Source: Corynebacterium sp. HMSC04H06 (lineage in GTDB: Bacteria > Actinomycetota > Actinomycetes > Mycobacteriales > Mycobacteriaceae). From it: a stretch of DNA of 64,000 bases. The notes under the pieces are model-generated. The model saw nothing but the letters and a program-made list of their open reading frames with translations. It did no database searches and had not been told where the DNA came from. The stretch is taken from positions 1-64,000 of the forward strand of contig NZ_KV823440.1 in assembly GCF_001815935.1 (NCBI RefSeq). Reading direction: 5' to 3'. Shown here one piece after another: positions 1 to 22,188 of this stretch. Within the stretch, counting starts at the first letter, position 1; each line of letters opens with the position of its first letter. The translations under genes were made by a program, and so were the position numbers.

Positions 1-1683
1 GCCTCACACACAAACTTCCTGACACCCTCCTACGCTGTTAACGGTGCCCTTCACTATGCGCGTCACATCTCTACCAAGAGTGGGTTTACGAAGGTTTTTG
101 CTGTCGCTGTCTCCGGTGGCGAAAAGCGTCATCGGATCACGCCTTACTACGTCGATGATCGGGGTGAGTTCAAACAGCTCGATGATATCGAGTCGTTCAT
201 CTGGTTCAATGAGTCGAATATCTACGAGTACTACACCCGCCATGTACTCGAAGAAGTCACTGACTACGAGAAGACGACCAAGGAGATCCTGAAAGACGCG
301 GCCGAGCTTCACGAAAAGCTGCGGACGTTCGGCACTCTCAAGGACCAAGACAAGCCCTTGGTCGTCTCGGGTATTTTGCTCGCTCTCGATGAGGTTGAAT
401 ACGGAAACTTCTCCATTGCCTCGCTCCACGGTGACAAACTTGCTGGGTCTCGCGACGGCGACAAGATCATGGCCGCTATCAAGGCTCGCCTAACCCGATC
501 AAACGTCGGCCCCGACGCTAAGCGCGACAAGCTCCTGCGTGAATTTGCCGTCATTACCGATAGCGTGCGATTGAACGAGGTTAACCCCACGCTCGGGAAG
601 ACGCCCCTGAAGTACTACACCGAGTTTTTGAACAAGCGGGTCTTCCAGGCCATCAAATACCAGCAAACATCCGAAGACTTCATCGGTCGCTTCTACGGCG
701 AGTTCATGAGCTACTCGGGAGGCGACGGTCAATCTCTCGGTATTATTCTCACGCCTAAGCACATGACTGACCTCATGGTGGACCTCGTCGACGTGCGTCC
801 CGACGATATCGTCCTGGACCCTACCTGCGGTACTGCCGGATTCCTTATCGCCGCAATGCACAAAATGTTGCACTCGGCGGAGAGTGATTCGCAGCGTCGA
901 AGCATCAAGAAGAAGCAGCTGCACGGCTTTGAGATTCAGCCAAATATGTTCGCCATTGCTGCAACAAACATGATCCTCCGGCATGACGGAAACTCGAACA
1001 TTCAAGCCGCCGATTTTCTGTCCCAGAACCCGGCAGACCTCCAACTTCAAAAGCATGCGTCTGTTGGTTTGATGAATCCGCCGTACAGTCAGGGCAAGGA
1101 CGACCCTAATCAGTACGAAATTCTCTTTACAGAGCACCTTCTCGACTCGATGACCGAAGAGGGGCGTGTAGCGGTGATTATTCCGCAATCTTGCGTCACT
1201 AATAAGACCAAGATTGAGCGACAAGCCAAGCAGCGCATCTTGAAGCGACACACGCTGGAAGGCGTAATCACCTGTAACCCAAACACTTTCTATGGTGTCG
1301 GCACTCATGCGTGTATTGCGATCTTCACCGCAGGTGTGCCCCATCCACCGGAACACGAAGCCAAGTTCATCGACTTTCGGGATGATGGCTTTGTGGTCCG
1401 ACCTCACATCGGTCTGATAGAAGGTGACACCGCTAAAGACAAGCGTCAGCACTTGCTAGATGTGTGGAACGGTCTGATCGAATCTTCGTCAGAGTTCTGT
1501 GTTTCCTCGACAGTGCTGTCAACCGACGAGTGGCTACACAGTTTTTACTACTTCAACGACGAGATCCCTACGGACAATGACTTTGAGAAGGCCATTGGTG
1601 ACTATCTCACATTCGAGTTCTCAATGATCATGCAAAACCGTGGATACCTTTTCGAGGGAGGGGACAACAATGAAGCCTCTTGA
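1..1683 (+). CDS. N6-adenine DNA methyltransferase / restriction subunit, BcgI alpha-like (5' partial)
   Basis: The frame is open from the first base, so the N-terminus is outside the window. A SAM-binding motif (LDPTCGTAGF, around 823-852) and the N6-adenine catalytic motif NPPY (around 1075-1086) identify a gamma-class adenine methylase. The segment before motif I (YGEF, then LTPKHMTDL) is typical of type I M subunits and of the fused BcgI alpha chains, which carry a nuclease domain ahead of the methylase. The visible upstream part could be the end of that nuclease, but this cannot be confirmed. The 3' end overlaps the specificity gene by 14 bases, indicating translational coupling. Moderate GC suggests horizontal origin. 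Confidence 0.85.
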   Translation, partial: ASHTNFLTPSYAVNGALHYARHISTKSGFTKVFAVAVSGGEKRHRITPYYVDDRGEFKQLDDIESFIWFNESNIYEYYTRHVLEEVTDYEKTTKEILKDAAELHEKLRTFGTLKDQDKPLVVSGILLALDEVEYGNFSIASLHGDKLAGSRDGDKIMAAIKARLTRSNVGPDAKRDKLLREFAVITDSVRLNEVNPTLGKTPLKYYTEFLNKRVFQAIKYQQTSEDFIGRFYGEFMSYSGGDGQSLGIILTPKHMTDLMVDLVDVRPDDIVLDPTCGTAGFLIAAMHKMLHSAESDSQRRSIKKKQLHGFEIQPNMFAIAATNMILRHDGNSNIQAADFLSQNPADLQLQKHASVGLMNPPYSQGKDDPNQYEILFTEHLLDSMTEEGRVAVIIPQSCVTNKTKIERQAKQRILKRHTLEGVITCNPNTFYGVGTHACIAIFTAGVPHPPEHEAKFIDFRDDGFVVRPHIGLIEGDTAKDKRQHLLDVWNGLIESSSEFCVSSTVLSTDEWLHSFYYFNDEIPTDNDFEKAIGDYLTFEFSMIMQNRGYLFEGGDNNEAS

Positions 1684-2725
1684 TCAATTGAACTGGGAGC
1701 CTCGTGTTCTCCAGGATGAGTTTGATTGCGCCAAAGGCGTCTACCTCCAAACCGACAGCGTCGTCGACGGAGACATCCCTTATGTAACTGCGAAAGCTGG
1801 GGGGAACGGTCTTAATCGTTTTATCGGCAACCGAGTCTTGTTCCCCGGTAACCACTTGACGGTTGAAAAAGTGAGGCTGAGTGCTTACTACCAGCCCGCT
1901 CCCTTTTACTGCTCTCATGACGTGAGCACATTGACCAACAGCTCTCTGAACGCTGAAAATGCGCAGTTCCTAGCAACCATGATTATGCGGAACGGTGCTA
2001 AGTATTCTTACGGTCGTCAGGCTCAGCTAGATGTCGTGAAACGCGAGAAAGTGTTTCTTCCGACAACCAGTAACGGCGATGTTGATTACGACTACATGGA
2101 GCAATATTCTGCTCAGACCCGAGAGCGATTGCTCGAACGCTATCAAGGTGTTCTGCGCTCCCGGCTTTCCGACCTCGTACACCATGACATCCCCGAACTT
2201 AGCGAAAAGGACTGGTCTGAGTTCCCGCTCAATGAAGTCTTCGCCGTGAAGTCCGGTGTCAGGTTGACTACGGCCGACAAAACCCCTGGACAACGCCCGT
2301 TTATCGGCGCTACTGACAATACCAATGGCGTTACGGGCTTTGTTTCCAACGAGAATCCTTCTTTGGACTCAAACGTCTTGGGAGTTAATTACAACGGCGC
2401 TCCGTGCATCGCCTTCTATCATCCCTATGAGGCTATTTTCACAGATGATGTGAAGCGTTTGAGGCTGCTGCATCATAGCAATAACGCCCTGGTCTTACTG
2501 TTCTGCAAGGTTGTCGTCATGCAACAAAGGGCGAAGTATTCCTACGGTTACAAGTTCAATGCCGGAAGAATGGCTCGCCAGCTTCTCATGTTTCCCGTGA
2601 CAAGCGACGGGGATATCGACTACGAGTACATGGAGAAGTACGCCGAGAATATGCTTCTCAGGAAGTACAGGCAGTACTCGGATTACCTCGCATCGCTTCT
2701 CGAAACCGATGCAGAGGAGAGCTAA
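1670..2725 (+). CDS. Restriction-modification specificity (S) subunit, BcgI beta-like
   Basis: The 351-residue protein has two similar halves, each ending in a matching block (AKYSYG followed by FLPTTSNGDVDYDYMEQY in the first half; AKYSYG and FPVTSDGDIDYEYMEKY in the second). This is the two target-recognition-domain layout of S subunits, which choose the DNA sequence cut and methylated by the partner encoded at 1-1683. ATG 1670 was chosen because a strong GAGGGAGGGG ribosome-binding site precedes it; an upstream GTG at 1640 is less likely. The stop lies two bases before the recombinase start, so the three genes form one transcript. A type I S subunit is the main alternative to a type IIB BcgI beta chain. 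Confidence 0.85.
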   Translation: MKPLDQLNWEPRVLQDEFDCAKGVYLQTDSVVDGDIPYVTAKAGGNGLNRFIGNRVLFPGNHLTVEKVRLSAYYQPAPFYCSHDVSTLTNSSLNAENAQFLATMIMRNGAKYSYGRQAQLDVVKREKVFLPTTSNGDVDYDYMEQYSAQTRERLLERYQGVLRSRLSDLVHHDIPELSEKDWSEFPLNEVFAVKSGVRLTTADKTPGQRPFIGATDNTNGVTGFVSNENPSLDSNVLGVNYNGAPCIAFYHPYEAIFTDDVKRLRLLHHSNNALVLLFCKVVVMQQRAKYSYGYKFNAGRMARQLLMFPVTSDGDIDYEYMEKYAENMLLRKYRQYSDYLASLLETDAEES

Positions 2726-2727
2726 CC

Positions 2728-3300
2728 ATGCTCATCGGTTATGCACGTGTGTCCACATCCAAGCAAGGGCAGTCGCTCGACACCCAGCGCGAGGCGCTCA
2801 TCGACGCTGGCTGCGACGCTGCGCACATCTACACCGACACCATCTCGGGGACCAAGTGGCAGCGGCCGGGCCTCGACGATGCTCTCGCCTACATGCGCCC
2901 AGACGACACACTAGTCGTGACCAGGCTGGACCGTCTCGGCCGCAACCTGGCGGAGACTGTGAACACCATCGCTGACCTGGCGGATCGCGACATCAACGTC
3001 AAGGTGCTAGAGCCAGCGCTAGACACGTCGCGGCCTGCCGACAAGGTGGTGATCAACGTCATGGCGTCGCTGGCTGAGTGGGAGCGCGACCTGCTGATCC
3101 AGCGCACCCGTGAAGGCGTAGCCCACGCCCGAGCACAGGGCAGGGTAGCCGGGCCGAAGCCCAAACTCTCCAACGAGCAAGCCCAGGTGGCCAAAGAGTT
3201 ACTCGACGGTGGCAAGTCCGTGAGTGCAGTGGCGAGGACGTTCAACGTATCTAGGCCCACCATTTACAGAGCCATCGAGCGCCTTGAGGCTGACGCATAA
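2728..3300 (+). CDS. Small serine recombinase (resolvase/invertase family)
   Basis: The 190-residue protein starts with the resolvase signature YARVST (Ser9 is the expected nucleophile), contains the RLDRLGRN motif, and ends with a helix-turn-helix domain (KSVSAVARTFNVSRPTIYRAI). This is the architecture of Tn3-type resolvases and Hin/Gin invertases, which cut and rejoin DNA at short inverted sites. It follows the S-subunit gene by two bases and has higher GC than the restriction genes, suggesting a separate origin. A perfect 13-base inverted repeat just downstream (3325-3378) could be its site. It could resolve element multimers, invert a segment, or support integration; the sequence does not decide which. 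It is too short to be a large serine integrase. Confidence 0.92.
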   Translation: MLIGYARVSTSKQGQSLDTQREALIDAGCDAAHIYTDTISGTKWQRPGLDDALAYMRPDDTLVVTRLDRLGRNLAETVNTIADLADRDINVKVLEPALDTSRPADKVVINVMASLAEWERDLLIQRTREGVAHARAQGRVAGPKPKLSNEQAQVAKELLDGGKSVSAVARTFNVSRPTIYRAIERLEADA

Positions 3301-4903: not shown

Positions 4904-5323
4904 ATGTCCAACCCGTTTAACAATGGCACCATCGTTGGCAACGCAGCACGCGAGCCGAAGATCTTTGAGCACGCAAACGGCGGTGCGACGGTGAAGCTCA
5001 ACGTCTACGCACGTAATACGTTCAAGAACAAGTCCACAGGCAAGGTGGAATCAGAGATTGTCGAACTCACTGGCTACGTGGCTGACGCCAAGAACCTCGG
5101 CGTCTTCGGATGCATCGGCGCTGGTGATCGCGTTGCAGTGAGCTACTCGCTGAAGACTGACAACTACACCGATAAGGACGGCAACAAGCACTATCCGCTG
5201 GTAGCGCGCATCGACACTGTGCAGCTGATCGACTCCAAGAAGGAGTCTGAGGCACGAGCAGCACGCCGCGAGAACAGCGCAGATAACGCTGCTGCTAATG
5301 ACTCTGAAGAAGTGCCGTTCTAG
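4904..5323 (+). CDS. ssb: Single-stranded DNA-binding protein
   Basis: The 139-residue protein has the OB-fold pattern of bacterial SSB (start NNGTIVGNAAREPK; middle VELTGYVADAKNL) and ends in the acidic tip EEVPF, the variant of the usual DDDIPF tail that docks replication and repair proteins. It coats single-stranded DNA during replication or conjugative transfer. The start ATG 4904 has a good AAGGAGA site. It is shorter than chromosomal corynebacterial SSB, and its place on an element with its own polymerase and relaxase suggests a dedicated element copy. A strong terminator follows directly. Confidence 0.93.
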   Translation: MSNPFNNGTIVGNAAREPKIFEHANGGATVKLNVYARNTFKNKSTGKVESEIVELTGYVADAKNLGVFGCIGAGDRVAVSYSLKTDNYTDKDGNKHYPLVARIDTVQLIDSKKESEARAARRENSADNAAANDSEEVPF

Positions 5324-6460: not shown

Positions 6461-6519
6461 AATCTTTTCGATCATCACCTATCCCACTTATGGCTAAGGC
6501 CAGGATGAGCAGGATTGTC

Positions 6520-6939
6520 ATGTCAGACTCACCAGATTTGGTGTACTTTTCTAGCGTTTCTGAAAACACAAAAAGATTCGTCGAACGCTTAGATAGACCC
6601 GCAGTGCGCATTCCACTGCGGCCCAAGAAAACCGGAATGATCCAGGTTTCACACCCGTACGTACTCATCGTTCCAACCTACGGCGGTGGCTCGCTCAAAC
6701 GCGCAGTCCCCAAACAGGTCATCGACTTCCTCAATGACCCAATCAACCGTTCCTTTATCCGGGGCGTGATTACCTCAGGCAATACCAACTTCGGAAGCGC
6801 TTACTGCGTCGCCGGCCGCATCATTTCCGCTAAGTGCCACGTTCCAGAGCTGTATCACTTCGAACTGCTCGGCACGCAGAAGGACGTTGCCGCTGTAAAG
6901 CAGGGCCTTCACAAGTTTTGGGAGCAGCAAAGCAACTAA
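6520..6939 (+). CDS. nrdI: NrdI flavodoxin-like protein of class I ribonucleotide reductase
   Basis: The protein has the NrdI pattern: [18 protein letters not shown] at the N-terminus (FMN phosphate loop) and [20 protein letters not shown] further on. NrdI is the flavoprotein that supplies superoxide to activate NrdF; in class Ie enzymes it drives formation of the DOPA radical without metal. Start is uncertain: ATG codons at 6490, 6505 and 6520 are in frame. ATG 6520 places the flavin loop at the family's usual position and has AGGA upstream; 6490 would add ten residues. It leads an operon with nrdE, nrdF, a small gene and an FMN reductase. No nrdH redoxin gene is present. Confidence 0.9.
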
Positions 6940-7006
6940 CAATTACACCCCATTGATTTCCCACAAAATGAAGACCACATCCGCAACACACAGATTGGAA
7001 ACCACA

Positions 7007-9202
7007 ATGCCGCCACTTAAGGCCACCCCCACACAGCCCATTGGCCCTACGCCCCGCACCGCTTCAGCAGACGATGCCGGCGGTGTCGGTAAGCGCAAGA
7101 GCTACCATGCACTCAACGCGCAGCTGAACCTATTCGACGATTCGGGAAGAATCCAGTTCGACAAGGACATTGAGGCAACACAAGACTTTTTAGCGCACCA
7201 TGTCACTCCCCGCATGCATCAGTTTGAATCCACCAAGCAGCGCTTGGAGTGGTTGGTTGATAACGAATACTACGAGCGGGAATTCCTTGAGCTTTATGAT
7301 GACGATTTTCTGTGCACTATGTACGACAGAGCCCACCGAGCCAAGCATCAGTTCCGCACTTTCCTCGGCGCATTTAAGTTCTTTACTTCATACGCACTGA
7401 AAACCTTTGATGGCTCGCGATTTCTGGAAGGCTACGAAGAACGCGTCGCCACCACAGCTTTGTACCTTGCACAGGGCGATGAAGAGCTTGCGGAGAAGCT
7501 GGTGGATGACATCATGACCGGACGCTTCCAGCCCGCCACCCCTACTTTTCTCAACGCAGGAAAAGCCCAGCGTGGCGAAATGGTCTCCTGCTTCCTCCTT
7601 CGCATCGAAGACAATTTGGAAAGCATTGGCCGCAGCGTGAACTCTGCACTGCAGCTTTCAAAACGCGGCGGTGGTGTGGCCTTGTTACTGAGCAATCTGC
7701 GCGAATCCGGAGCCCCAATCAAAAAGATTGAGAACCAAGCTTCCGGCGTAGTCCCAGTCATGAAAATTCTGGAAGATAGCTTCAGCTATGCCAACCAATT
7801 GGGCGCTCGACAGGGCGCTGGAGCCGTCTACCTACATGCGCACCATCCAGATATTCTTCGTTTCCTGGATACCAAGCGGGAAAATGCCGATGAGAAAGTC
7901 CGCATTAAGACTCTTTCGCTGGGAGTTGTTATTCCAGATATAACCTTCCAGCTGGCCAAAGAGAACAAGGATATGCATCTTTTTAGCCCGTATGACATCG
8001 CTCGCGAGTACGGCGTAGCCATGTCTGACATGTCTATCACCGAGTATTACGACGAGCTGGTTTCCAATCCGCGAATTTCTCATACGACTATCAAGGCCCG
8101 CGAGTTTTTCACCACGCTGGCTGAGCTTCAGTTTGAATCTGGATACCCCTACATACTCTTTGAGGATACGGTCAACCGCGCTAATCCCCTCAAAGGACAT
8201 ATCAATATGTCCAATCTGTGTAGTGAGATCCTCCAGGTCAACACGCCATCCACCTACGGCGCCTCAGGTAACTACACCACCGTTGGCCAGGACATTTCCT
8301 GCAATCTAGGGTCGCTCAACATCGCTAAAGCTTTTGAATCACCGGACTTTGGGGAAACTGTTGAAACCGCGGTGCGCGCTCTCACGAAGGTCTCAGACCT
8401 AACAAATATCGAAGCTGTTCCTTCCATCGCTCACGGTAATGCATCCATGCATGCCATCGGGTTGGGCCAAATGAATCTCCACGGTTTCCTGGCTTCCAAG
8501 CGTATTCCTTATGGCTGCGCCGAAGCACTGGACTTTACAAATATCTATTTCCTGACCGTGACCTATCATGCGCTCCGTGCATCCCATGCGCTAGCGGTTG
8601 AGAAAGGTCAACGATTCACTGGCTTTGAAGAATCCACCTATGCCACTGGCGTCTACTTCGACAAGTACATCGACCAAGACTGGGCGCCGGCCACTGACCA
8701 CGTAAAACAGCTATTCCATGAGGCTGGCGTGCAGATTCCTCAACGCGAGGATTGGCTACGGCTCAAGAACCAAGTGATGCAAGACGGCATCTACAACGCC
8801 TACTTGCAGGCAGTTCCACCCACTGGATCAATTTCCTACATCAATGACTCCACCGCGTCCATACACCCGATTGCCTCCAAGATTGAAATACGCAAGGAAG
8901 GCCGCTTGGGGCGCGTGTACTACCCCGCACCGGAAATGACCAACGACAACTTGGAGTATTTCGATGACTCCTACACCGTGGGGTACAAAAAAATCATCGA
9001 CACCTACGCTATGGCCACCCAACACGTGGACCAAGGGCTTTCCCTGACTTTGTTCTTCACCGCTGACACCACTACGCGGGACATCAACAAGGCACAAATC
9101 TATGCCTGGAAAGCCGGAATCAAGACCTTGTACTACATCCGTTTACGCCAACCTGCACTCCAGGGAACCGAGGTCGAAGGCTGCGTTTCCTGTGCTCTGT
9201 AG
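7007..9202 (+). CDS. nrdE: Class Ib/Ie-type ribonucleotide reductase large subunit NrdE
   Basis: This is the catalytic alpha subunit that reduces ribonucleoside diphosphates. Seen in the sequence are the finger-loop motif SNLCSEI with the thiyl cysteine, the redox cysteines in MVSCFLL and ISCNLGS, and the C-terminal CVSC pair that passes electrons from a redoxin. From ATG 7007 it is 731 residues, slightly longer than usual NrdE (about 700-720) because of a Pro/Thr-rich N-terminal extension before [10 protein letters not shown]. In-frame starts at 6953 (TTG) and 6968 (ATG) exist but lack better ribosome-binding sites. It is followed by nrdF after 51 bases. Its radical partner is the unusual NrdF next door. 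Confidence 0.95.
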
Positions 9203-10532
<1,330 letters not shown>

Positions 10533-11409: not shown

Positions 11410-13029
11410 CTACAGCTCCATGCCACCATCGCGGTCGCGCTGTTGCTGCTGCTGGCGGCGCTTGTTGGTTCGTTCCTGAGCACGACGGCGTGCGGCGGTC
11501 CGTTCCTGCTGAGTGCGCTGTTCGACAGTATCGAGGTAGCGCTGCTTCATCTCAGGGTCGTTATCGAGTTCGACATGCAGGAAGTCCCGGTCTACGTGGG
11601 AAATCTCTTGCAGAGACTCAACAGCCTCTTCGATGATGATCTTGGCTTCCTCCTCTGCAGCTGCGCGGCGCGCTTCGAGACTTTCGGCGAACGCACGTTT
11701 CTCCGTGTCAAAGGCTTCACGCTCACTGTCCAGGGCTGCGCGTTCGCTAGCCAGCTGTTCACGCTCACGCGCGGCCTCGCTGCGGATGCTCTCAGCGTCC
11801 CGCTCGGCTTCCTTGCGTGCTGAGGTGCGGATGCTCTCTGCGTCCTGTTCCGCACGCTTGAGCTTGCCCTCTGCAGCACTGTTGACCTCTTCGGCACGGT
11901 CCAGCAGCTCATCTGCTTGAGCTTCGGCCAGCCCTGCCGTCTGCTCAGCATCCTTGCGTGCTTCACTACGGATCTGCTCTGCCTCCTGCTCAGCCTTCTC
12001 GCGTGTCTCGCGTAGTACGCGTTCGGCCACTGCACGCGCCTGCGTGTCAGCGTTCTCCAGTACGCCCTGCGCTGCTTCACGGTCTTTCTTGGCCTGTTCG
12101 AGTTCCTCTGCGGCCTGCTTGAGATCACGGTCAATCGCGTCCATGTCTCGTTGTACAGAACGGCGCTTGACCTCCACCTCGTCCTCGCGGTTCGTGAGGT
12201 CACGCTCCCGGTCCTGCTGCTCCGCATAGCGGTCAGGACTGAGTGACTCGTCGTGTCGTTCAGACACATCTAGCTCTACCGGATAACCCAGCGCGTACAT
12301 GTGCTCGCGGAGTCCGCGCTGCGCGTCGATGAACTTCTGGTTCCCGGAGATTTGTTTGCCCTTCTTCGGGCCATCTTTGTACCGCACCGAGGTGTCGGTG
12401 TTGTACGCGATGCCGGGGCGGCAACGTAGCTTGGCAGGGTCTTTCGGGTCAGGGGAGAAGGTGTCAGCCTGGAACTGGATGTGAGGCGTGCTCTCATCGA
12501 AGTTCATATCCCCGCCGGCCACAGCATCGATGCCGCCGGGGATGAAGTTCTCGGCGAGCCAGCGCATCGACTCTTCGAGGTACTCCTTCGCTTCGTCGTA
12601 GTCGCGCGCTACCAGCCGTGCTCGCTTCACCTCACGGCCGTCCACCTCACTGGTGTAGAAATCGGGGACCTCCACACACATCGACTTCGGCAGATGCACG
12701 ACGAACAATGACGTTTCAAACGAGTTCTTCTGTACACGTACACCGTCCATACGGGCGTCCTGGTACTGCAGGACTTCCTCGACGGATGTTGCGCGCCTGA
12801 ACGTCCCATCTCCGTTGTTCACGAACGGGACGTTCAAGTGCGCGTCGGCCACGACGATGTTTGAGTTCATCGCGGCCTGATGCGCGAGATCCTGCGGATC
12901 TAATTCTCGCATCGCCTCCTTGAGGAGTCGCTTGCGATCTCCACGTGTGTCTCCGCCGCAGTTATCGCGGCGAAGATGGCGCAGATTGAACGCTGCGCGT
13001 CCCTTCTGCGCTGTAGATGTCTCCGACAT
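11410..13029 (-). CDS. MobV-family relaxase (Mob/Pre) with long coiled-coil tail
   Basis: The 539-residue protein has a Mob/Pre N-terminal domain: a basic start (FNLRHLRRDN), a motif II equivalent (NSNIVVADAHLNV, residues about 55-67) and a motif III equivalent (DESTPHIQF). Such proteins nick oriT and pilot plasmid DNA in mobilization. Roughly residues 290-500 form a long Glu/Ala/Arg-rich coiled coil with repeated EAE.IRSEA-like units, followed by a basic Gln/Arg tail. ATG 13029 is preceded by a perfect AGGAGG site; an upstream in-frame start at 13170 would run through a structured region and is rejected. Upstream inverted repeats are candidates for oriT. Transfer would need a conjugation apparatus in trans. 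Confidence 0.88.
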   Translation of the reverse strand: MSETSTAQKGRAAFNLRHLRRDNCGGDTRGDRKRLLKEAMRELDPQDLAHQAAMNSNIVVADAHLNVPFVNNGDGTFRRATSVEEVLQYQDARMDGVRVQKNSFETSLFVVHLPKSMCVEVPDFYTSEVDGREVKRARLVARDYDEAKEYLEESMRWLAENFIPGGIDAVAGGDMNFDESTPHIQFQADTFSPDPKDPAKLRCRPGIAYNTDTSVRYKDGPKKGKQISGNQKFIDAQRGLREHMYALGYPVELDVSERHDESLSPDRYAEQQDRERDLTNREDEVEVKRRSVQRDMDAIDRDLKQAAEELEQAKKDREAAQGVLENADTQARAVAERVLRETREKAEQEAEQIRSEARKDAEQTAGLAEAQADELLDRAEEVNSAAEGKLKRAEQDAESIRTSARKEAERDAESIRSEAAREREQLASERAALDSEREAFDTEKRAFAESLEARRAAAEEEAKIIIEEAVESLQEISHVDRDFLHVELDNDPEMKQRYLDTVEQRTQQERTAARRRAQERTNKRRQQQQQRDRDGGMEL

Positions 13030-13107
13030 ATCTGTGTACCTCCTGTAGATGTGTGCGCGCACACGGAGCCTCTGTCTTCGACCCCTCCATGTACGCGCAC
13101 ACATGGC

Positions 13108-13196
13108 GAACTTGAGTTTTCTGGGGACCCCTAAGAATCGTTCGGGTCCCTTAGCTACGCCGTCCCACACGATTCTACCCCAAAAAACTCAAGTTC
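13108..13196. repeat. Large inverted repeat upstream of the relaxase gene, candidate oriT
   Basis: Arms 13108-13126 and 13178-13196 (GAACTTGAGTTTTCTGGGG and its complement) match at 18 of 19 positions. An inner pair AGAATCG / CGATTCT shares nearly the same axis. The structure begins about 80 bases upstream of the MobV start codon, where oriT of this relaxase family usually lies. A separate 14-base palindrome, GTGTGCGCGCACAC, lies between it and the gene. No nick site can be assigned. Confidence 0.6.
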
Positions 13197-13937: not shown

Positions 13938-14219
13938 CTAATTCTGTACAGACTCACCGGAGTTATCCGGCTCGCTGGACGCTCCGCTGTGGGTATCAGA
14001 CGGCTTCTCACCGTCAGGCTCGGAGGGTTTGTCAGGCTTGTCTTTGCCCTCTTTGGGTGGCTCATCGCCGTCGAGGTTTACCTCAAACTCTTTGGCGTAC
14101 TCACGCATCTTCTCTAGCCGTTCTTTCGCCGCCTTGTGTGCACGGCGGGCTTCATTCACGGCGTCTTTGGCCCTCTGTTCTTCAAGCATCGCGGCCTCGT
14201 AGTCTTCACGAAAAGACAT
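13938..14219 (-). CDS. Small coiled-coil hypothetical protein (93 aa)
   Basis: ATG 14219 has an AAGGAGAAA ribosome-binding site. Residues about 5-45 form a heptad-like charged helix (RAKDAVNEARRAHKAAKERL), followed by an acidic Pro/Lys/Ser-rich, probably disordered tail. No domain is recognised. It is the last gene of the minus-strand operon after the primase-polymerase gene (90 bases apart) and before a terminator. Such short coiled-coil proteins can be polymerase accessory or copy-control factors; that is speculation. Coding is well supported by the start signal and composition. Confidence 0.65.
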   Translation of the reverse strand: MSFREDYEAAMLEEQRAKDAVNEARRAHKAAKERLEKMREYAKEFEVNLDGDEPPKEGKDKPDKPSEPDGEKPSDTHSGASSEPDNSGESVQN

Positions 14220-14308: not shown

Positions 14309-17300
14309 TCAGTCCTTGCACCCTGCCCATGACTCCGCAGGGCCTGCAGAGTCGGACAGGACAGGGACTTCCACACCGTCCTTGCCGGGCAGTGTGACAG
14401 CGTTGAACGCAGCCAGGACCGTCTGCGTGATCTCCTCGGCACGGTCACGTGGGACCGAGAGAACAATCTCGTCGTGGACGAAGATGCGGATCATCCCCAG
14501 CACCTCCTGAGGGAGGTTCATCACGCCTTCGAGGAACACATCACGTGCAGTACCCTGGCCGTACGCGGCAGGGGCTTGGGTGTACGCAGTGGAGCGTCCT
14601 ACAGCCACACGACGGCCAAAACCAGTTGCAACCCAGCCGAGTGCCTCGGCGTGCTTGCGTAGGTGGTTTTTGAAGTGTTCGAGAGTCTGGAACTCAAAGT
14701 GCATGCGGTCCAACTGCCCCTGCGCCTCGACCTCGGAGATGCCAGCATGCGCTGCAAAACTCTTTGATCCCATGCCGTAGTTCGCGGCGTGGCCGAGCGC
14801 CTTCGCTTCAGGCCTGCGCTCAGCGTCACCGAAGACCCTGATGGCCATCTCGGTGTGGGCGTCGCGGCCCGGCGCAAAGAGTTCTGCGTACTTGGTATCA
14901 CCGCTACCTGCTGCCATGCAGCGCGCGTCGATTTGCGACAGATCCACCGCGATCAATGCTTCATCAGCGTTGTCGGGCAAGATCATTTGACGCTGGCGGA
15001 TCAGCTGCGCATCGCGAGAACCGAACACCGTCATGCCGGGGTTCGTGGTACTCAGCCGGCCAGTGACCTGGCTTGACTGAATACTCGGGTACACCTTGTC
15101 TCCGTGCAAGTGCTTCTTGATCGTCGAGGCCGGGGTAGAGGACTGCAGTAGCGTCTCCATCTTCTCGGCCAGTTCGACGACCTCGGGCACATCAGCGTGC
15201 TGTTCGGCAAGTTCATTCAGCGCCTTCGCACTGGTGCTGATCGCACCCTTGGCCGTGCGTGGGGCAGCAACGCCGAACCGTTGAAGGTACTCGGCAATAG
15301 CTTGCTTCCCGTTATTAGACGACCAGGGCTGTTTCCCCTTATCTGGGATACCGACCACGCTGACGAGCCAAGCACGGATCTCAGCCTTGATGGCTGCTTC
15401 TTCTGCCAAAAACTCTTCAACCTTGGCAGTGTCTACACGCACACCGTGGGACTCAACCACGCTCAGTGCGTGCATTTTCTCGTGCTCGCGCTGCAGATAC
15501 TCTGCGCTAACTGCCTCCAAGGCAGCTGGGAGCATCTTGTTGTAGACAGCTACGTTTGCACGCACGTCCTGCAGTGCGTAAGCAACGTACTCAGCGTTAT
15601 CTACAGGGATCTTCTCAAACCCGCCGTACTGCTTGGCCAGCGCCTTGAGCGCGGTATCACTGCCGCTGAGCAGCTTGCCGTCCACACCGCAGCGCGCGGC
15701 TACAGCTTCCAGGCCGTAGCCCAAATTCGTATCCCCACCAGCAGCCAGGCGGGACAGGACCAGCGTGTCATGCACCTTGCCAGCGTCGATGAGCGCCTTG
15801 TCGTCCAGGCCGTACAGCCGCCGCAGGGCAGGCAGGTCATACTGCACGATATTGTGACCGACGATGGTATCTGCGCGCTCCAGGAGCGGGATCAGTTCAC
15901 CGGCAATATCCGTGGTGGTCACCGGCTCCGCGCCGTTGATCGAGTAAGCAGCAAGACGCACGAAGCCAGGATCATCCGTGACCTGTGCATCGTCTGCGCT
16001 GCCAGTCTCGGTATCAAACACAACAATGGTCTTGTCGGCGGGCGCTGCAGGGGCTGCTGGCTCGTCTACTGTTTCTGCTGGTGGCGTTGGTTCCGGTGCT
16101 GGCGGGGGAGTCCCACCGCCGTTACCGTTGCCACCGCTGCCGCCATCACCGTCGTCATCGTCGGGATCACCGTTCCCCGGACCCAAGGGATCGTCCTCAG
16201 GATCGCCAAGCCAGACAATTCTGTAGCGCAGATCTGCAAACTTAGGTGTCTCCATCTGCTTGACTGCAAGACCCTCAAGATTTCTGTTCTTGAGAAAGTT
16301 GTACACCTTCTGCAGACTGTATGCTTTTGCGTCCTGGAGGCCGTAGATACCGTCGGGGAGAGGTACGTGAGCATCTGCCATACCCAGCTGCTTCCACAAC
16401 ACATCTTTTGAGTCTTCTAGGTCCAGCTGTTCGCCAATGGAGCTAATGATCCGCTCGATATCCCACGCGCGGAAACCGTCCTCAAAGTCGTAAAACTCGT
16501 TATCCTGCACATACTTGTACAGCCAGTGAAGGTGCTGGATATCGGCAATTTCGCCATCATTACGCTCACGACGTTGCTCCTCAATGTCCGCGAAAAAGTC
16601 CTCGAAGCCCGCGTGGACAATCACACCTCCGACGACCTGGTACCACTTTTCAAAACTGCCTTCGGCCCTTCCAGACGGAGGCTTTGGCTTGTCCGCCGCT
16701 ATCCACGACTGGATGATCGTGAGCAGTGCAGTCATTAGCCGGCCACGGTTTTCCAACACCCAGTCCTCTAGCGGGCTGTGCTTAAAATCCGACCTCGTCT
16801 CCGCGTAATCTACGTCTGTTGATAAGCGGCAGTAGTAGATGCGGCGAGCCATGTCGCGAGAAAACCGCACGTTATTGCCGGTAAAGGCCATCATAAGGAT
16901 GTTGCGAACGGCAATTTGTCGTGACTCACCGAGTACACGGCCCCTGTAGGTCTTACTCGTGATCGCAGATCGAAGGTAGCGAGAATCAATCTCGCGGGGA
17001 GGCTCATCGAAATGCACGTGGGAATGACCAGCCGCATAAACCGACGTGAGCACCTTCCCCCACTCTTCGTCGTTGTTAGGGCACGTAGAAACGGGAAGCG
17101 CGTCACCCGTGAGCAGAATAGCCGCTGCCTTCAGGAGCTTTTCTTTACCCACCGAAGGACCACTACCCGTAATGGCCAACGCAGGTACAGCGTCAAGCCA
17201 GAGACGCACGATACTTGTGATCATCCAGGCCAGTACGTGAAAAAAGTCAGACTCGTCTTCAAACGGAAAGTCGCAAAACATCTCGCGAAGAAGTTCAAGT

Positions 17301-18718
17301 GCCTCGTCCGCCTCTTGCTCAGTCGGGTTGGCCGGTACTTCCAAACCTTCAACAGCTGGATCGAGGTCAAACTCCAACCCAGTTTCAACGTCATATCCAG
17401 AGTGGAGAATCATTCGACCACTCTCAGTAACAACCGGCGAATGCACAACACCGTTGAGCGGAGGCAAGTTCTTTACAGACTCGCTTTGAAAAATGTTGTC
17501 AACTTCAGAGCCAGGGAGACTGACACTTCTCGGGCCGTTTTTCATCATCATAAACGTCGTAACCGAGCGACGAATGATACTCATACCGTTCGAGCGTGTG
17601 ACAGGCACAACGTCACAACGACGATTATCTGAAGCAGACGTTGCAGGCCTATGCAGCATCTGGACAGCCCGCTCACCCTGAGAAAATAGCGACTCGCCAC
17701 CAAACTTCTCGTTGACAATCTCGAAGATCTTCTCGTTGCGAACCTCATCATTACCTTCGTGGATATCCATCACCTCAGACCCGGGATAACGAATCGTTTC
17801 CATCAGAGCGTCCAACTCACTCTCATTAGCTGCACCACCGGGAAGCTCAGGCATTTTCGGCATCTTCCGAGCAGGCTTGTCTTGGGCCTTGCTGATCCAC
17901 AGCTCAAGCATCTCCGCACGCTTGTCTTCAGGCAGAGATGCCAGAACGTCATCGAGACCCTGCTTGCCCTGACCAGGCACCTGCACAAAGCGCACTGGTG
18001 TTGCACCCCACTGGATAAGCAGTTCGCGAAACTCGCGCGCGCCGTCATAGACGTACCGGTTCTCACTGGCGTCTGCATCAGGGACGATACAGACGTACAG
18101 ACCCATGAACTGCGAGAGTACAGCGTAATTCTGCAAGCCTCTCCAGCCCCAAATACCCGTGATGCGGTAGACGGCAACCGTTTCGTCCGTGTTCGACAAG
18201 GCGGCAAGGGCTTGCTTCGTGCCCTCGACGATGAGCACGAGCTTCGTCTCATCAGTAACAGGTCGCAGCACCGTCAGCGCAGGCGGGGGAGTGCCCCACT
18301 CGTTGTCCTTGGTCGGGCAGATGTACTTCTTCGGCCGACCCTTGCTGTCGCACACAGATCCAGGCCGGGGCTTGACTTGGTACGTGGTTTCACCACTAAT
18401 TTCTTCCATCGGGAAGACGAGAGATGTCAGCGCATCCGGGCCGATCCGCTGTAATTCCTTAGGTAGGGCCTCAATGGTGCGAGCTGAGTACACGCCACAA
18501 GCCTCGATAACCTCATCGGAGATCGCGCTCGCGCGCAGCTCTTCGAGATGCTCATCAGTGAGTTTCGGAGTCACGGTATGGACAGGCGAAGAAGTTGTAT
18601 CTCCCGGTTGACCGAGTGATACCACGGTGGTATCATTGAGGTCAGAAACCGCAGCATCCTGACCCGTTGTTGTTTCTTGGCCCCCGCTCGCTACGGGGGT
18701 CTTTTTCTTTGCCTCCAT
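14309..18718 (-). CDS. Primase-helicase-exonuclease-family A DNA polymerase fusion (PREX-like replicase)
   Basis: One 1469-residue chain. (1) Residues 53-80 carry the DUF3854 start (LTDEHLEELRASAI). (2) A TOPRIM-type primase follows, with VEGTK (Glu165) and PDAD (Asp214/Asp216). (3) An AAA+/SF3-like helicase has a degenerate P-loop (GSGPSVGKE, 518-526), Walker B HFDE (569-572) and the sensor-like TGNNVRFSRDMARR (613-626). (4) A Gly/Asp then Pro/Ala linker covers about 840-896. (5) A DnaQ-like 3'-5' exonuclease has FDTE (901-904), GHNIVQYD (954-961) and Tyr1047-Asp1051. (6) A family A polymerase has motif A AVDLSQIDAR (Asp1259), motif B with Arg1302, Lys1306 and Tyr1314, and motif C VHDE (1414-1417). 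It probably unwinds, primes, copies and proofreads the element. The gene follows the HTH gene by two bases. Function is inferred; the domains are directly visible. Confidence 0.9.
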   Translation of the reverse strand: MEAKKKTPVASGGQETTTGQDAAVSDLNDTTVVSLGQPGDTTSSPVHTVTPKLTDEHLEELRASAISDEVIEACGVYSARTIEALPKELQRIGPDALTSLVFPMEEISGETTYQVKPRPGSVCDSKGRPKKYICPTKDNEWGTPPPALTVLRPVTDETKLVLIVEGTKQALAALSNTDETVAVYRITGIWGWRGLQNYAVLSQFMGLYVCIVPDADASENRYVYDGAREFRELLIQWGATPVRFVQVPGQGKQGLDDVLASLPEDKRAEMLELWISKAQDKPARKMPKMPELPGGAANESELDALMETIRYPGSEVMDIHEGNDEVRNEKIFEIVNEKFGGESLFSQGERAVQMLHRPATSASDNRRCDVVPVTRSNGMSIIRRSVTTFMMMKNGPRSVSLPGSEVDNIFQSESVKNLPPLNGVVHSPVVTESGRMILHSGYDVETGLEFDLDPAVEGLEVPANPTEQEADEALELLREMFCDFPFEDESDFFHVLAWMITSIVRLWLDAVPALAITGSGPSVGKEKLLKAAAILLTGDALPVSTCPNNDEEWGKVLTSVYAAGHSHVHFDEPPREIDSRYLRSAITSKTYRGRVLGESRQIAVRNILMMAFTGNNVRFSRDMARRIYYCRLSTDVDYAETRSDFKHSPLEDWVLENRGRLMTALLTIIQSWIAADKPKPPSGRAEGSFEKWYQVVGGVIVHAGFEDFFADIEEQRRERNDGEIADIQHLHWLYKYVQDNEFYDFEDGFRAWDIERIISSIGEQLDLEDSKDVLWKQLGMADAHVPLPDGIYGLQDAKAYSLQKVYNFLKNRNLEGLAVKQMETPKFADLRYRIVWLGDPEDDPLGPGNGDPDDDDGDGGSGGNGNGGGTPPPAPEPTPPAETVDEPAAPAAPADKTIVVFDTETGSADDAQVTDDPGFVRLAAYSINGAEPVTTTDIAGELIPLLERADTIVGHNIVQYDLPALRRLYGLDDKALIDAGKVHDTLVLSRLAAGGDTNLGYGLEAVAARCGVDGKLLSGSDTALKALAKQYGGFEKIPVDNAEYVAYALQDVRANVAVYNKMLPAALEAVSAEYLQREHEKMHALSVVESHGVRVDTAKVEEFLAEEAAIKAEIRAWLVSVVGIPDKGKQPWSSNNGKQAIAEYLQRFGVAAPRTAKGAISTSAKALNELAEQHADVPEVVELAEKMETLLQSSTPASTIKKHLHGDKVYPSIQSSQVTGRLSTTNPGMTVFGSRDAQLIRQRQMILPDNADEALIAVDLSQIDARCMAAGSGDTKYAELFAPGRDAHTEMAIRVFGDAERRPEAKALGHAANYGMGSKSFAAHAGISEVEAQGQLDRMHFEFQTLEHFKNHLRKHAEALGWVATGFGRRVAVGRSTAYTQAPAAYGQGTARDVFLEGVMNLPQEVLGMIRIFVHDEIVLSVPRDRAEEITQTVLAAFNAVTLPGKDGVEVPVLSDSAGPAESWAGCKD

Positions 18719-18720
18719 GG

Positions 18721-19029
18721 TTACGCTGCACCTCCAAGCACTGTCACGAGCTGCTGGCGCTGCGCATTGCTGAGTTTTGGTGCAGCATCAACGACAGCAT
18801 CAACAAAGTTGTCAAACATATGTGGCGACGGCACACGCGCAGCATCGAGATAGAGGTCGAGATCTTCCTGGCTGACGCGGTAGGCAGAACCGAAACGGTG
18901 AACGGCAAGTCGGCCTTCTTTAATGGCCTTACGCAGTAGAGACTCCGAGCCGAGGCCAAGTTCGTTGAGTTCTTGCAGCGAGTAGAAACGAGGTCCGATA
19001 GTCGGGGTAGCGGTGTCTTGTGCAGACAT
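18721..19029 (-). CDS. Excisionase-like helix-turn-helix DNA-binding protein
   Basis: The 102-residue protein has a MerR/excisionase-type winged HTH (YSLQELNELGLGSESLLRKA, then RLAVHRFGSAYRVSQEDLDLYL), the pattern of plasmid and phage excisionases and replication regulators. ATG 19029 is preceded by AGGAG at ten bases. It is the first gene of the operon whose second gene is the replicase, two bases downstream, so it is more likely a replication initiator accessory or autoregulator than a pure excisionase. The non-coding region upstream (19030-19790) holds palindromes and direct repeats that could be its targets. Confidence 0.8.
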   Translation of the reverse strand: MSAQDTATPTIGPRFYSLQELNELGLGSESLLRKAIKEGRLAVHRFGSAYRVSQEDLDLYLDAARVPSPHMFDNFVDAVVDAAPKLSNAQRQQLVTVLGGAA

Positions 19030-19554
19030 AATAAAGCGCTCCTGAGCAGTGTTAACTACCCGGAGCGGGGTGCTTTTCCGGCTATATTCAGGCGGCGTGG
19101 AGAGCCGTGCATAACTCGCTAGACGCTGGTCAGTGCGTCCATTGCTTTACCAGAGAGCGAACTCTGTACCTGACCGCTTTTGTGGCCGGTAATGCCGTTA
19201 CCAGCCGGTCAATCTCGTTGGAGGAACCGTGCTTATCTCGGTCGAGATGCTATCTCTTTACGTCATATCCTCGGGGTTATCCCTTGTCCGTGGCTAGCAA
19301 GACCAGAAAGTATAGAAAGTCACCACGTGCAATCTGCTGTACATCTTACAGCAGTAACGCGGCCTGCGCAATACCTTTTGTAACTAACAATTCACAGTGC
19401 GGTACAACGCAGCCCTGCAGTCTGTGTGCGGCAAATATAGGGTGTGTGTCAATACATCCGTACCTCTAATGGCAATGAGCAGCCTGTGCGCCAAACGGGT
19501 GGCTTGCAAGAAGTCGCCCGCTGGAGCAGGGCGCCGCCCTATTGAAAAATAATG

Positions 19555-19598
19555 GAAAAAAATGATTAATGGGTATATACCAACCTTTCATTTTTTTC
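19555..19598. repeat. 44-base symmetric palindrome near the element's right end
   Basis: Outer arms GAAAAAAATGA (19555-19565) and TCATTTTTTTC (19588-19598) are perfect complements, and the centre GGTATATACC (19572-19581) is a perfect palindrome on exactly the same axis (19576.5). Overall 17 of 22 half-site positions match. It may bind an initiator, recombinase or regulator, or act as an AT-rich unwinding site. Confidence 0.75.
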
Positions 19599-19650
19599 TA
19601 CTTTTATCAGTGCCTTAGGTTCAAAACTGTAGGGAGGTCGTTTGGTGTAC

Positions 19651-19730
19651 ACCGTATGTTTGCCGCACACGGTGCTACTTAGCCACTTACGGCGCGAACA
19701 TTCCGCTTAGACCGTATGTTTGCCGCACAC
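19651..19730. repeat. 20-base direct repeat, two copies
   Basis: ACCGTATGTTTGCCGCACAC occurs at 19651-19670 and again at 19711-19730, exactly 60 bases apart, 64 bases from the eccC junction at the nearer copy. Spacing near an integral number of helical turns (about 5.7 at 10.5 bases per turn) is not exact. Arm-type recombinase sites or regulator sites are possible. Confidence 0.8.
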
Positions 19731-19794
19731 AGCGGCAATTTCTACTTTCTCGTAATTACGTAGGAGGTATCGTACCCACAACCCATGTTCGTTT

Positions 19795-22188
19795 AAGTCG
19801 GAGCTGCTGCGCAGCCTGGTCACCGCGCTGGCAGCCACGCACTCGCCCGAGGAGCTGAACCTGGTGCTTGTGGATTTTAAAGGCGGGGCGACCTTCCTGG
19901 GCTGCGAGCAGCTGCCGCACACCGCGGCGGTGATTACCAACCTGGAGGAAGAATCCGTCCTGGTCGAGCGTATGTACGACGCCATCTCCGGGGAGATGAA
20001 CCGCCGCCAGGAGATCCTGCGCCAGGCCGGCAACTTCGCCAACGTCGGCGACTACAACGCCGGGCGCGACCCGGACCAGTTCCCGCCGCTTCCCGCCCTG
20101 GTCATCGTGGTGGACGAGTTCTCCGAGCTGCTGGGCCAGCACCCGGACTTCGCCGACCTCTTCGTCGCCGTTGGCCGCCTGGGCCGTTCGCTGCACGTGC
20201 ACCTGCTGCTGGCCTCCCAGCGGCTGGAGGAGGGCCGCCTGCGCGGGCTGGACTCACACCTGTCCTATCGGATCGGGCTCAAGACCTTCTCCGCCGCGGA
20301 GTCCCGCCAGGTCCTAGGCGCTACCGATGCCTACCACCTGCCCGCCCAGCCGGGTGCCGGCTACCTGAAGACCAACGGCGACGCCCTCGAGCGCTTCCAA
20401 GCCACCTACGTTTCCGGGCCGCTCGCCCGCCCGGCCGAACCAGCTGAAGGGGAAAGCGTACCGTCGGCCCGGGTGTCCGTCTTCGATGGCTGGGACGCTC
20501 ACATCACCGAGGACAGCGAGCCGGAGCTTGTCTGGGATGAGTCGACGACGCTGCTCAACGAGGTCGTGGCCGCCGCCCGCGCGGAGGCCAACAACCGCGG
20601 GCACAGCGCCCACCGCATCTGGCTGCCGCCGCTGCCCGCCGCGGTCGAGCTGCCCGAGATCCTGCACCGGGCTGGCCAGACCACCCACCTGCAGGCCGCG
20701 GTCGGGCTCATCGACCGTCCCTACCACCAGCGCCAGGATCCCCTGGTGGTGGACTTTTCCACCGCCGGCGGGCACGCGGCCGTCTGCGGCGGTCCGCAGA
20801 CGGGCAAGTCCATGGCGCTGCGCACCCTCGTCGGCTCCCTGGCCGCGAACCATGGAACTGAGGCCGTCCGCTTCTACGTCATCGACTTGGGCGGCGGGGC
20901 GCTAGCCAACTTGGACCGCCTGCCGCACGTGGCGGGCGTGGCCGGCCGCGACGAGCCGGACACGGTCCGCCGCGTCGTCGACGAGGTCACCGGCCTGGTC
21001 GAGCGCCCCGAGCCCCGCCACACCTTCCTGGTCCTAGACGGCTGGCACCACGTGGGCACCGCCGGCGCGGAGTTTAACGATCTCACGGAGAAGATCACCG
21101 CCCTAGCCGCCGACGGCCCCAGCACCCGCGTCCACCTGGTCTTGTCCACGCCGCGGTGGACCACCCTGCGCCCGTCGATTAGGGACCTCATCGCCCACCG
21201 GCTGGAGCTACGCCTGGGGGAGGCCATGGAGTCCCTGGTGGACCGCAAGGCCCAGCAGAAGCTGCCGGCCCTGCCCGGCCGCGGGCTCACCGAGACCGGG
21301 GAGATGATGCTACTGGCGCGCACCTCCAACCAGGACGTGGCGCACCTGCAGTCCCGCGGCGGCGACCCGGTGCCCCGGCTCAAGACCCTGCCCGACCAGC
21401 TGCTCCCGTCCGACCTGCCCCGGCACGCGCTGACCGCCGGGCTGGTCTGGGGAATCGGCGGCCGCGACCTGGAGCCGGTGGCCTGGGACCCGGCCACCAG
21501 CGCCCACCTGGTCTGCGTCGGCGCCAGCGGGTCCGGCAAGTCCACCTTCGTCCGGGTCATTGCCGGCGCGGTGACTGGCCTGCCCCGGGAGGACGCGCGC
21601 CTGGTGGTCATCGATCCGCGCCGGGCGCACCTGGGCGCGCTCGACGAGGACATGCTCGCCGCCTATGCCGCCACGCCCGCGGCGGCGGAGAAGGCCCTGC
21701 GCGATACTGCGGCGACTATGCGCGAACGCCTGCCGGGGCCGGATATCACCCCGGCGCGCCTGCGCGCCCGCGATTGGTGGAGCGGCCCGGAGATCTACGT
21801 GGTCATCGACGACGCAGAACTAACCAGCGAGGCCGCCCTGCACCCGCTGGTGGAGCTCATCCCGCACGCCCAGGACATCGGCCTGCACGTCATCTTCGCC
21901 CGCAAGGCCGGCGGCATCGGCCGCGCCATGTTCGGCAAGTTCTGCTCGGCGCTCAAAGACACCCAGCCCGCCGTCCTGCTCCTGGACGCCGACAAGGAGG
22001 AAGGCCCCATCTTCGGCATGAAGCCGAAGCGCCAGCCGCCCGGCCGCGGCCGCTTCCACGTCCGCGGCGAGGAACTGGGCCTGTGCCAAATCATCCACGC
22101 CGACGACCAAGAAGACGCAGCACCACCAGCCGCCGAAGAACGAGACGAGAGCAACCAAGCAGAAAGCAAGCGAAAGGACACCCCATGA
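19795..22188 (+). pseudogene. eccC: Type VII secretion ATPase EccC, 5'-truncated by element insertion
   Basis: The remaining 797 codons cover the C-terminal two thirds of an EccC-type FtsK/SpoIIIE ATPase. The fragment begins in the first ATPase P-loop (Lys-Ser-Glu-Leu-Leu-Arg), then VLVDFKGGATF and VIVVDEFSELL of ATPase 1, the second P-loop GGPQTGKS (around 20788) and the third P-loop GASGSGKST (around 21523). EccC normally has about 1200-1300 residues with two N-terminal membrane helices, which are missing. An in-frame stop at 19753 and no good start imply the fragment is not made properly. The 5' part should lie beyond the left end of the element. It overlaps the next gene by four bases. 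Loss should stop ESX secretion unless the element excises. Confidence 0.88.

Follow-up and report, generated by a model that had tools for sequence, protein, structure and literature searches.

The window, that is, the 64,000-base stretch of DNA analysed here, comprises bases 1–64000 of a 180,668-base contig (NZ_KV823440.1) in the 2.38 Mb, 72-contig assembly of Corynebacterium sp. HMSC04H06. Its minus strand encodes a 1469-residue protein, here called the replicase, in which, as judged from sequence comparisons and a structure model, a TOPRIM primase, an SF3/D5-type helicase, a DEDD(y) 3′-5′ exonuclease and a family A DNA polymerase are joined in one chain. The replicase is real and conserved and is probably functional; with a probability of roughly 0.72 it serves to replicate the Corynebacterium element that encodes it, which is integrative and probably mobilizable. 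On the present comparisons it looks like a recurring, little-noticed and self-contained copying machine, not a one-off. In the following, G-numbers denote searched genomes, L-numbers loci and C-numbers contigs of the window's own genome.

Domain architecture and conservation of the replicase

The 1469-residue open reading frame (ORF) reported in the initial annotation does exist and is read from the minus strand, starting with an ATG at 18718 that is preceded by a GGAGG motif, while a plus-strand reading of 14309–18718 contains 18 stops. The gene and its domains are the following:

14309–18718, minus strand: fused replicase, ORF of 1469 residues with Pfam and PHROGs matches, fused in relatives
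17849–18562, minus strand (residues 53–290): primase domain, DnaG/T7 gp4-like RNA polymerase domain with TOPRIM residues E165, D214 and D216 (PHROGs, structure model, alignment)
16484–17533, minus strand (residues 396–745): SF3/D5-type AAA+ helicase domain with Walker A GKE, Walker B D571-E572 and arginines R625-R626
16031–16201, minus strand (residues 840–896): Gly/Pro/Asp-rich linker (sequence, alignment)
15539–16033, minus strand (residues 896–1060): DEDD(y) 3′-5′ exonuclease domain (PHROGs, alignment)
14312–15526, minus strand (residues 1065–1469): family A polymerase domain with motif A D1259, motif B R1302/K1306/H1310/Y1314 and motif C HDE 1415–1417

Pfam DNA_pol_A matches residues 1146–1438 above its cut-off (E 2.8e-39), PHROGs profiles for DNA polymerase and DNA primase match residues 879–1469 (6e-99) and 54–288 (2.7e-32), respectively, and an unnamed PHROGs family spans the helicase region at 400–737 (3.5e-54). 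The 60 matches listed, out of 66, between the polymerase and solved structures are all Pol I-type or theta enzymes. Pfam, PHROGs and the alignment agree with the initial annotation that the exonuclease and a family A polymerase with motifs A, B and C reside in the same chain. The Pfam evidence for the N-terminal half is fainter: DUF3854 at residues 161–261 scores 18.4 bits, under its 23-bit cut-off, and among 35 aligned primase-helicase regions DUF3854 is matched in 27 and Toprim_3 in 5 (E up to 1), with weak, mixed matches only in the helicase region. When the primase-helicase profile was run against the sequences of solved structures, one chance-level row came up. As regards a zinc-binding domain of the primase, residues 1–53 contain no Cys and no such Pfam match; the structure model starts at residue 45.

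An AlphaFold2 model of residues 45–758, based on 35 sequences, has a mean predicted local distance difference test score (pLDDT) of 86.7. The first 246 residues of the model resemble the RNA polymerase domains of DnaG and T7 gp4; residues 45–281 match 2au3 with Z 14.4 (211 aligned, 3.8 Å), and the primase model matches 6n9u_F with Z 14.0 (186 aligned, 3.2 Å). The helicase model matches SF3/D5-type AAA+ proteins, namely the SaPI5 primase-helicase, poxvirus D5/E5, the African swine fever virus (ASFV) PrimPol and NrS-1, with Z 13.5 (221 aligned, 3.8 Å) for 7pds and Z 12.9 (338 aligned, 6.9 Å) for 7ola, both PriRep1/SaPI5 primase-helicases; MCM rows rank only slightly below. T7 gp4 and Twinkle rows that extend across both domains have a root-mean-square deviation near 19 Å and do not speak for a T7-type helicase. 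Among predicted viral structures the best match to the model is Pas55 of the Actinoplanes phage phiAsp2.

The catalytic residues are conserved in nearly all members of an alignment of 40 fused proteins. Besides the window's own chain, it contains 10 chains of other Corynebacterium genomes and 29 found on viral contigs, phiAsp2 being represented once more among the latter; four duplicate loci were left out. First, the primase residues E165, D214 and D216, cited in the initial annotation, are identical in 40/40 proteins. Next, in the helicase region the same holds for G524, K525, D571, E572, N606, G614, R625 and R626, among them the Walker B, sensor and arginine residues that had been pointed out, and N615 is kept in 38/40. 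Finally, the exonuclease residues D902, E904, D961, Y1047 and D1051 and the polymerase residues D1259, R1302, Y1314, H1415, D1416 and E1417 are identical throughout; K1306 and H1310 are kept in 39/40, and one atypical row, L078, seems to be displaced at motif B.

Ratios of nonsynonymous to synonymous substitution rates (dN/dS) were calculated for six pairs. They are only rough, because dS is often greater than 1, most of all in the helicase: 0.08–0.14 in five pairs and 0.26 in one for the primase, 0.06–0.17 in five pairs for the exonuclease, 0.10–0.15 in all six for the polymerase and 0.10–0.31 in five for the helicase, the sixth pair being not computable for exonuclease and helicase. Between the window and its close relative G231 the primase, exonuclease and polymerase give 0.06–0.15, and these ratios indicate that the three domains are under purifying selection.

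Residue 1310 (window 14789–14791), which we take to be equivalent to F762 of E. coli PolA on the basis of our own alignment, is a His in the window. The same residue is found at this position in 36/38 fused, 8/10 split and 2/2 primase-polymerase rows and in 1/2 helicase-polymerase rows, the other of which has a gap; three host PolI enzymes have Tyr. In a study of viral PolA proteins, sequences were retained only if residue 762 was F, L or Y (PMC9069017), so the His762 clade would have dropped out of it.

Distribution of the fusion and exchange of its parts

The helicase was found in 18 of 242 Corynebacterium genomes searched, and in 11 of these 18 the fused chain is intact, with a length of 1374–1480 residues. 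The chain of G284 is cut by a contig end, and that of G227 is without a primase match. In 394 genomes of the class there were 16 matches, the window's included, and the open frames of the other 15 (557–1026 residues) are too short for the full chain. An alignment query, in place of a single-sequence query that gave none, located 44 loci on viral contigs, 29 of which carry all four domains in one ORF. The remaining viral loci are varied: primase, exonuclease and polymerase are fused in L069 and L086 with no match to the replicase's helicase, which suggests that another helicase takes the place of the usual one; L092 is fused with no exonuclease match; primase-helicase and polymerase lie in separate ORFs in L073 and L090, as do primase and exonuclease-polymerase in L061 and L088, again with no match to the replicase's helicase; and L055, L076, L080, L083, L084, L089, L091 and L093 hold part of the chain only, several at contig ends. 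Among the named phage records, phiAsp2 (two records of one phage) is the only one in which 80% of the query is matched at a single place, and none of the plasmid records reaches 80%. In Streptomyces phages such as BabyGotBac the primase and polymerase genes adjoin but are unfused. Helicase-domain relatives were also seen in Caulobacter phages such as phiCbK (JX100813 118148–119170), annotated as hypothetical, 'P-loop ATPase-like' or 'PE-PGRS'.

The fusion, whose conservation the initial annotation had left to a homologue search, is thus shared with ten other Corynebacterium genomes and 29/44 viral loci, alongside separate-gene forms. A chance fusion, misassembly or loss of a stop codon is ruled out, because intact fused relatives recur. 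The label 'bacterial' originally given to the protein proved too narrow, as 29 of the 40 aligned fused chains come from viral contigs. In a polymerase tree the fused label requires 6 changes, a hint that fusion or splitting has happened more than once; the tree is to be used loosely, with its long branches, row L014 far off and a 'split' label that includes a frame-broken copy of C. minutissimum.

Some of the chains appear to be mosaic. In the DNA flanking the replicase, G231 agrees with the window at 99.1% of positions over 7.3 kb to one side and at 97.2% to the other, where chromosome is included, and at the protein level the primases are 92% and the exonuclease-polymerases 88% identical, but the helicases only 47%. 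Similarly, the exonuclease-polymerase of C. phoceense is closest to that of C. oculi (85%), whereas its primase (88%) and helicase (76%, compared with 39% for C. oculi) are closest to G303. From the steps in identity, and with loci L127, L119, L120 and L121 compared with the window, we take this as recombination inside the replicase gene, in which one zone of breakpoints lies close to the linker; helicases and primase-helicase halves appear to be exchanged between close elements. Origin specificity was considered as a cause of the helicase exchange and is unsupported, the right ends of the window and G231 elements being 97% identical in DNA and their helicases 47% in protein. This right-end identity is not special to the element, because G231 is a close relative and its neighbouring chromosome is about as similar.

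The integrated element and its candidate origin

The replicase gene lies close to the right end of the element, the other recognised features of which are listed below:

358–2725, plus strand: type I restriction-modification genes (HsdM- and HsdS-like)
2728–3300, plus strand: small serine resolvase
4904–5323, plus strand: single-stranded DNA-binding protein (SSB), PF00436 at 38.3 bits (cut-off 26)
6490–10279, plus strand: class Ib ribonucleotide reductase genes NrdI, NrdE and NrdF
11410–13170, minus strand: MobV-like putative relaxase with motif DESTPH and a coiled-coil-like tail, PF01076 sub-threshold
13938–14219, minus strand: small protein of 93 residues between the replicase and MobV-like genes, kept in relatives having the MobV-like gene
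18721–19029, minus strand: helix-turn-helix (HTH)/excisionase-like protein of 102 residues with sub-threshold matches to HTH_17 and TIGR01764, its gene ending 2 bp upstream of that for the replicase
19422–19732, no strand assigned: candidate origin or HTH-binding region, four repeat sites placed symmetrically (two inverted, two direct) around an AT-rich stretch
19795–19796, plus strand: right junction, at the AA of the codon for the Walker A lysine in eccC, followed by the 3′ part of eccC

The G+C content, taken in 1-kb steps, is 0.51–0.61 up to 20 kb and then 0.72. The rise falls inside eccC, which belongs to a type VII secretion locus and has WXG100, rplM and rpsI genes beside it; EccCb, L13 and S9 score above NCBIfam cut-offs. 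The 5′ half of eccC is on contig C2 next to the EccD gene and runs directly into a large serine recombinase gene, the product of which matches Resolvase and Recombinase above Pfam cut-offs. A junction at the same eccC site is present at about 3897 in L036, the sequence before the AA is identical at the right end in nine genomes (window, C. oculi, C. minutissimum, G303, G331, G231, G284, G206 and G315), left junctions are seen in all three genomes for which that end was available, and three other genomes have the empty site as an uninterrupted eccC. Judging from these sequences, the element has been inserted by the large serine integrase at the codon for the Walker A lysine of eccC, which splits the gene, and a junction of this integrase marks its boundary. 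Both ends lie on one contig in C. oculi and C. minutissimum, where the elements measure ~21.6 kb and ~31 kb, respectively. We found no paper on eccC together with a serine integrase in the open-licence literature.

The initial annotation had placed the replicase on a mobile element with an HTH protein, an SSB and a relaxase, of which the SSB stands above its Pfam cut-off and the relaxase is the weaker part. Each of the 11 intact Corynebacterium copies has a MobV-like or MobA-type gene close to the replicase, with PF03432 and MobC above cut-off for the MobA-type gene of G101, and the element is probably mobilizable. The window's element also carries DUF4192 and iron-dependent-repressor-like regulator genes. 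A second NrdE, 68% identical to that of the element, is encoded by the host on contig C68. Ten proteins scanned from the C. oculi element comprise an integrase, an EcoRI-type methylase, a GmrSD/HNH nuclease, DUF4192, an oxidoreductase, MerB, a transposase and three without a match, with no phage structural proteins among them. In that element (L044 11722–13858) a gene for a pyridine-nucleotide oxidoreductase adjoins one for an organomercury lyase, and the two probably confer mercury resistance. No tRNA was found in the window and no Rfam match in its positions 1–20500.

The repeats of the candidate origin share a 13-base core, which in the window is placed at −294 and −234 (inverted) and at −60 and 0 (direct) with 1, 2, 0 and 0 mismatches. 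G231 has sites at the same positions with 2, 3, 1 and 1 mismatches, and C. oculi has them at −294, −233 and 0 (2, 1 and 1 mismatches), its site at −60 being a poor one with 4. With 2 mismatches allowed, 0.026 sites turn up in shuffled sequence, the core itself having been taken from the window. C. minutissimum has different repeats.

Related systems and proposed role

Several known systems show a likeness to the replicase. First, Pas55 of phiAsp2 also unites all four domains in a single chain, which has 1415 residues and aligns to 87% of the query at 31% identity, although it belongs to a phage with genes noted as terminase and is annotated only as a putative DNA polymerase. Next, GP55 of the lactococcal phage 1706 is likewise described as a four-in-one replicase with activities shown by its authors, who in 2025 called four replication activities in one protein unprecedented; it differs in having an AEP-type primase, a family B polymerase and another domain order (PMC12205980), the polymerase here being of family A. 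GP55 shows that a chain of this kind is workable, albeit with different parts (PMC12205980). The hot-spring 3173/Pyrovirus polyprotein similarly combines a primase/helicase-like region with a proofreading family A polymerase, but is viral, 1606 residues long and has a DUF927 region, and is likened here by its description only (PMC7689252). These two proteins are precedents (PMC12205980, PMC7689252), and the 3173 polyprotein, like PREX, represents the idea in its family A form.

Partial counterparts are more widespread. Fusions of D5 helicases with primases of the DnaG or AEP type occur commonly (PMC2579912), and the predicted addition over such fusions is the proofreading family A polymerase; the exonuclease domain also sets the replicase apart from TV-Pol, a minimal polymerase without one. 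The CCPol-MP-Cch2 module of SCCmec pattern 2 is, as here, a family A polymerase with a D5-type helicase on a serine-recombinase element, and has been shown biochemically; in contrast, it is described as three separate proteins, with a polymerase lacking an exonuclease and with no DnaG-type primase (PMC7581432). DUF3854 proteins are plasmid Rep proteins in cyanobacteria, and these CyRepA proteins share the N-terminal, TOPRIM-related DUF3854, but have a C-terminal DEXDc domain and no polymerase in the architecture described (PMC10079941). The words 'primase' and 'helicase' are absent from the main text of a survey of bacterial DNA polymerases (PMC12926913). No description of a fused TOPRIM-SF3-PolA replicase family was met in the open-licence literature, a weak negative for a literature surveyed mostly by listing.

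The apicomplexan enzyme PREX, to which the replicase had initially been likened, has a T7 gp4-like helicase. It does contain a primase, helicase, exonuclease and family A polymerase in the same order (PMC9631997, PMC8113025, PMC6523293), and the likeness holds for this order, while kinship with PREX would be conjectural; the leading helicase matches of the replicase are of the SF3/D5 type (SaPI5, D5/E5, ASFV PrimPol). Furthermore, PREX had been cited as a single-chain replisome, whereas it is nuclear-encoded and cut into separate enzymes after import and is for this reason no proof of a working single chain (PMC9631997). A polyprotein of this kind, cut in the linker so that primase-helicase and exonuclease-polymerase act separately, is a distinctly unlikely reading of the replicase. 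The processing of PREX (PMC9631997), the Gly/Pro/Asp-rich linker, the tolerated exchange between the replicase halves and the split genes of relatives in Corynebacterium genomes and in Streptomyces phages are in line with it. Against it stands the variation of the linker in length and sequence (in ten Corynebacterium relatives, 36–80% identity over 24–56 aligned positions), though this argument is not a strong one, and no element protease was recognised among the part of the genes scanned.

Several observations weigh against the replicase as a single-chain replication enzyme of a mobilizable element. The Walker A motif lacks the GK[S/T] form of SF3/D5-type helicases in all 40 fused chains, the residue after GK being Asn in 34, Gly in 5 and Glu in 1, the window alone. 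One chain is not essential, because 3 of the 18 helicase-bearing Corynebacterium genomes (G268, G247 and G325) encode the primase-helicase apart from the polymerase, in separate genes or pieces. The HTH gene and the replicase may form one operon in the window, given the 2 bp gap and the GGAGG before the start, yet this arrangement is not constant, because ~1.4 kb is inserted between them in G231 (L127 11968–13372). The repeats follow the HTH protein and not the helicase: the HTH proteins of the window, G231 and C. oculi are 94–97% alike while their helicases differ, so the sites are more likely those of the HTH protein, and the core in this layout was not found in the other Corynebacterium loci searched. 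Finally, the MobV-like protein is sub-threshold for Mob_Pre (PF01076) and without a match among 72,556 plasmid records, its structure model (pLDDT 46.5) is useless, and only its coiled-coil-like tail matched in a search of solved structures.

The unique Glu would fit a window gene that is decaying or inactive, and copies do die: the replicase of C. minutissimum is frame-broken, and in G375 (L118 8275–10752) the chain stops after the helicase, leaving a primase-helicase 97% identical to that of the window between transposase-like ORFs (by reading). With an open frame, the other checked active-site residues kept and dN/dS well below 1, such decay is highly improbable for the window. It is rather unlikely, too, that the enzyme serves no autonomous replication, and only second-strand priming and fill-in after conjugative transfer or a brief amplification after excision. 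The relaxase-type gene beside all intact copies and the chromosomal integration of the C. oculi and C. minutissimum elements speak for such a limited task, for which, however, a helicase and origin-like repeats seem superfluous; moreover, a fused relative serves phage phiAsp2, which needs whole-genome replication.

As a replication enzyme of the element, the replicase could act as follows. Following excision of the element by the integrase, the helicase domain would open an origin, perhaps at 19422–19732 with the HTH protein. SF3/D5-type helicase proteins usually form hexamers. The primase domain would then lay RNA primers, which the tethered exonuclease-polymerase would extend and proofread, while the element's SSB would coat single strands. 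In this way the element might multiply while drawing little on the host replisome, both after excision and in second-strand synthesis after transfer.

More tentatively, a class of single-chain TOPRIM-SF3-PolA replicases common to phages and actinobacterial integrative elements could constitute a swappable replisome, the helicase and primase-helicase halves of which recombine between close elements, perhaps escaping interference from the host or rival elements, and the His762 clade of which has been hidden by residue filters. The replicase would represent a second four-activity combination beside GP55 (PMC12205980), made of different parts, with a family A polymerase and in Corynebacterium elements. 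If active, it would provide a compact enzyme for de novo DNA synthesis and a way to test what elements gain from a fused replisome, and its natural chimeras would reveal which halves are exchangeable.

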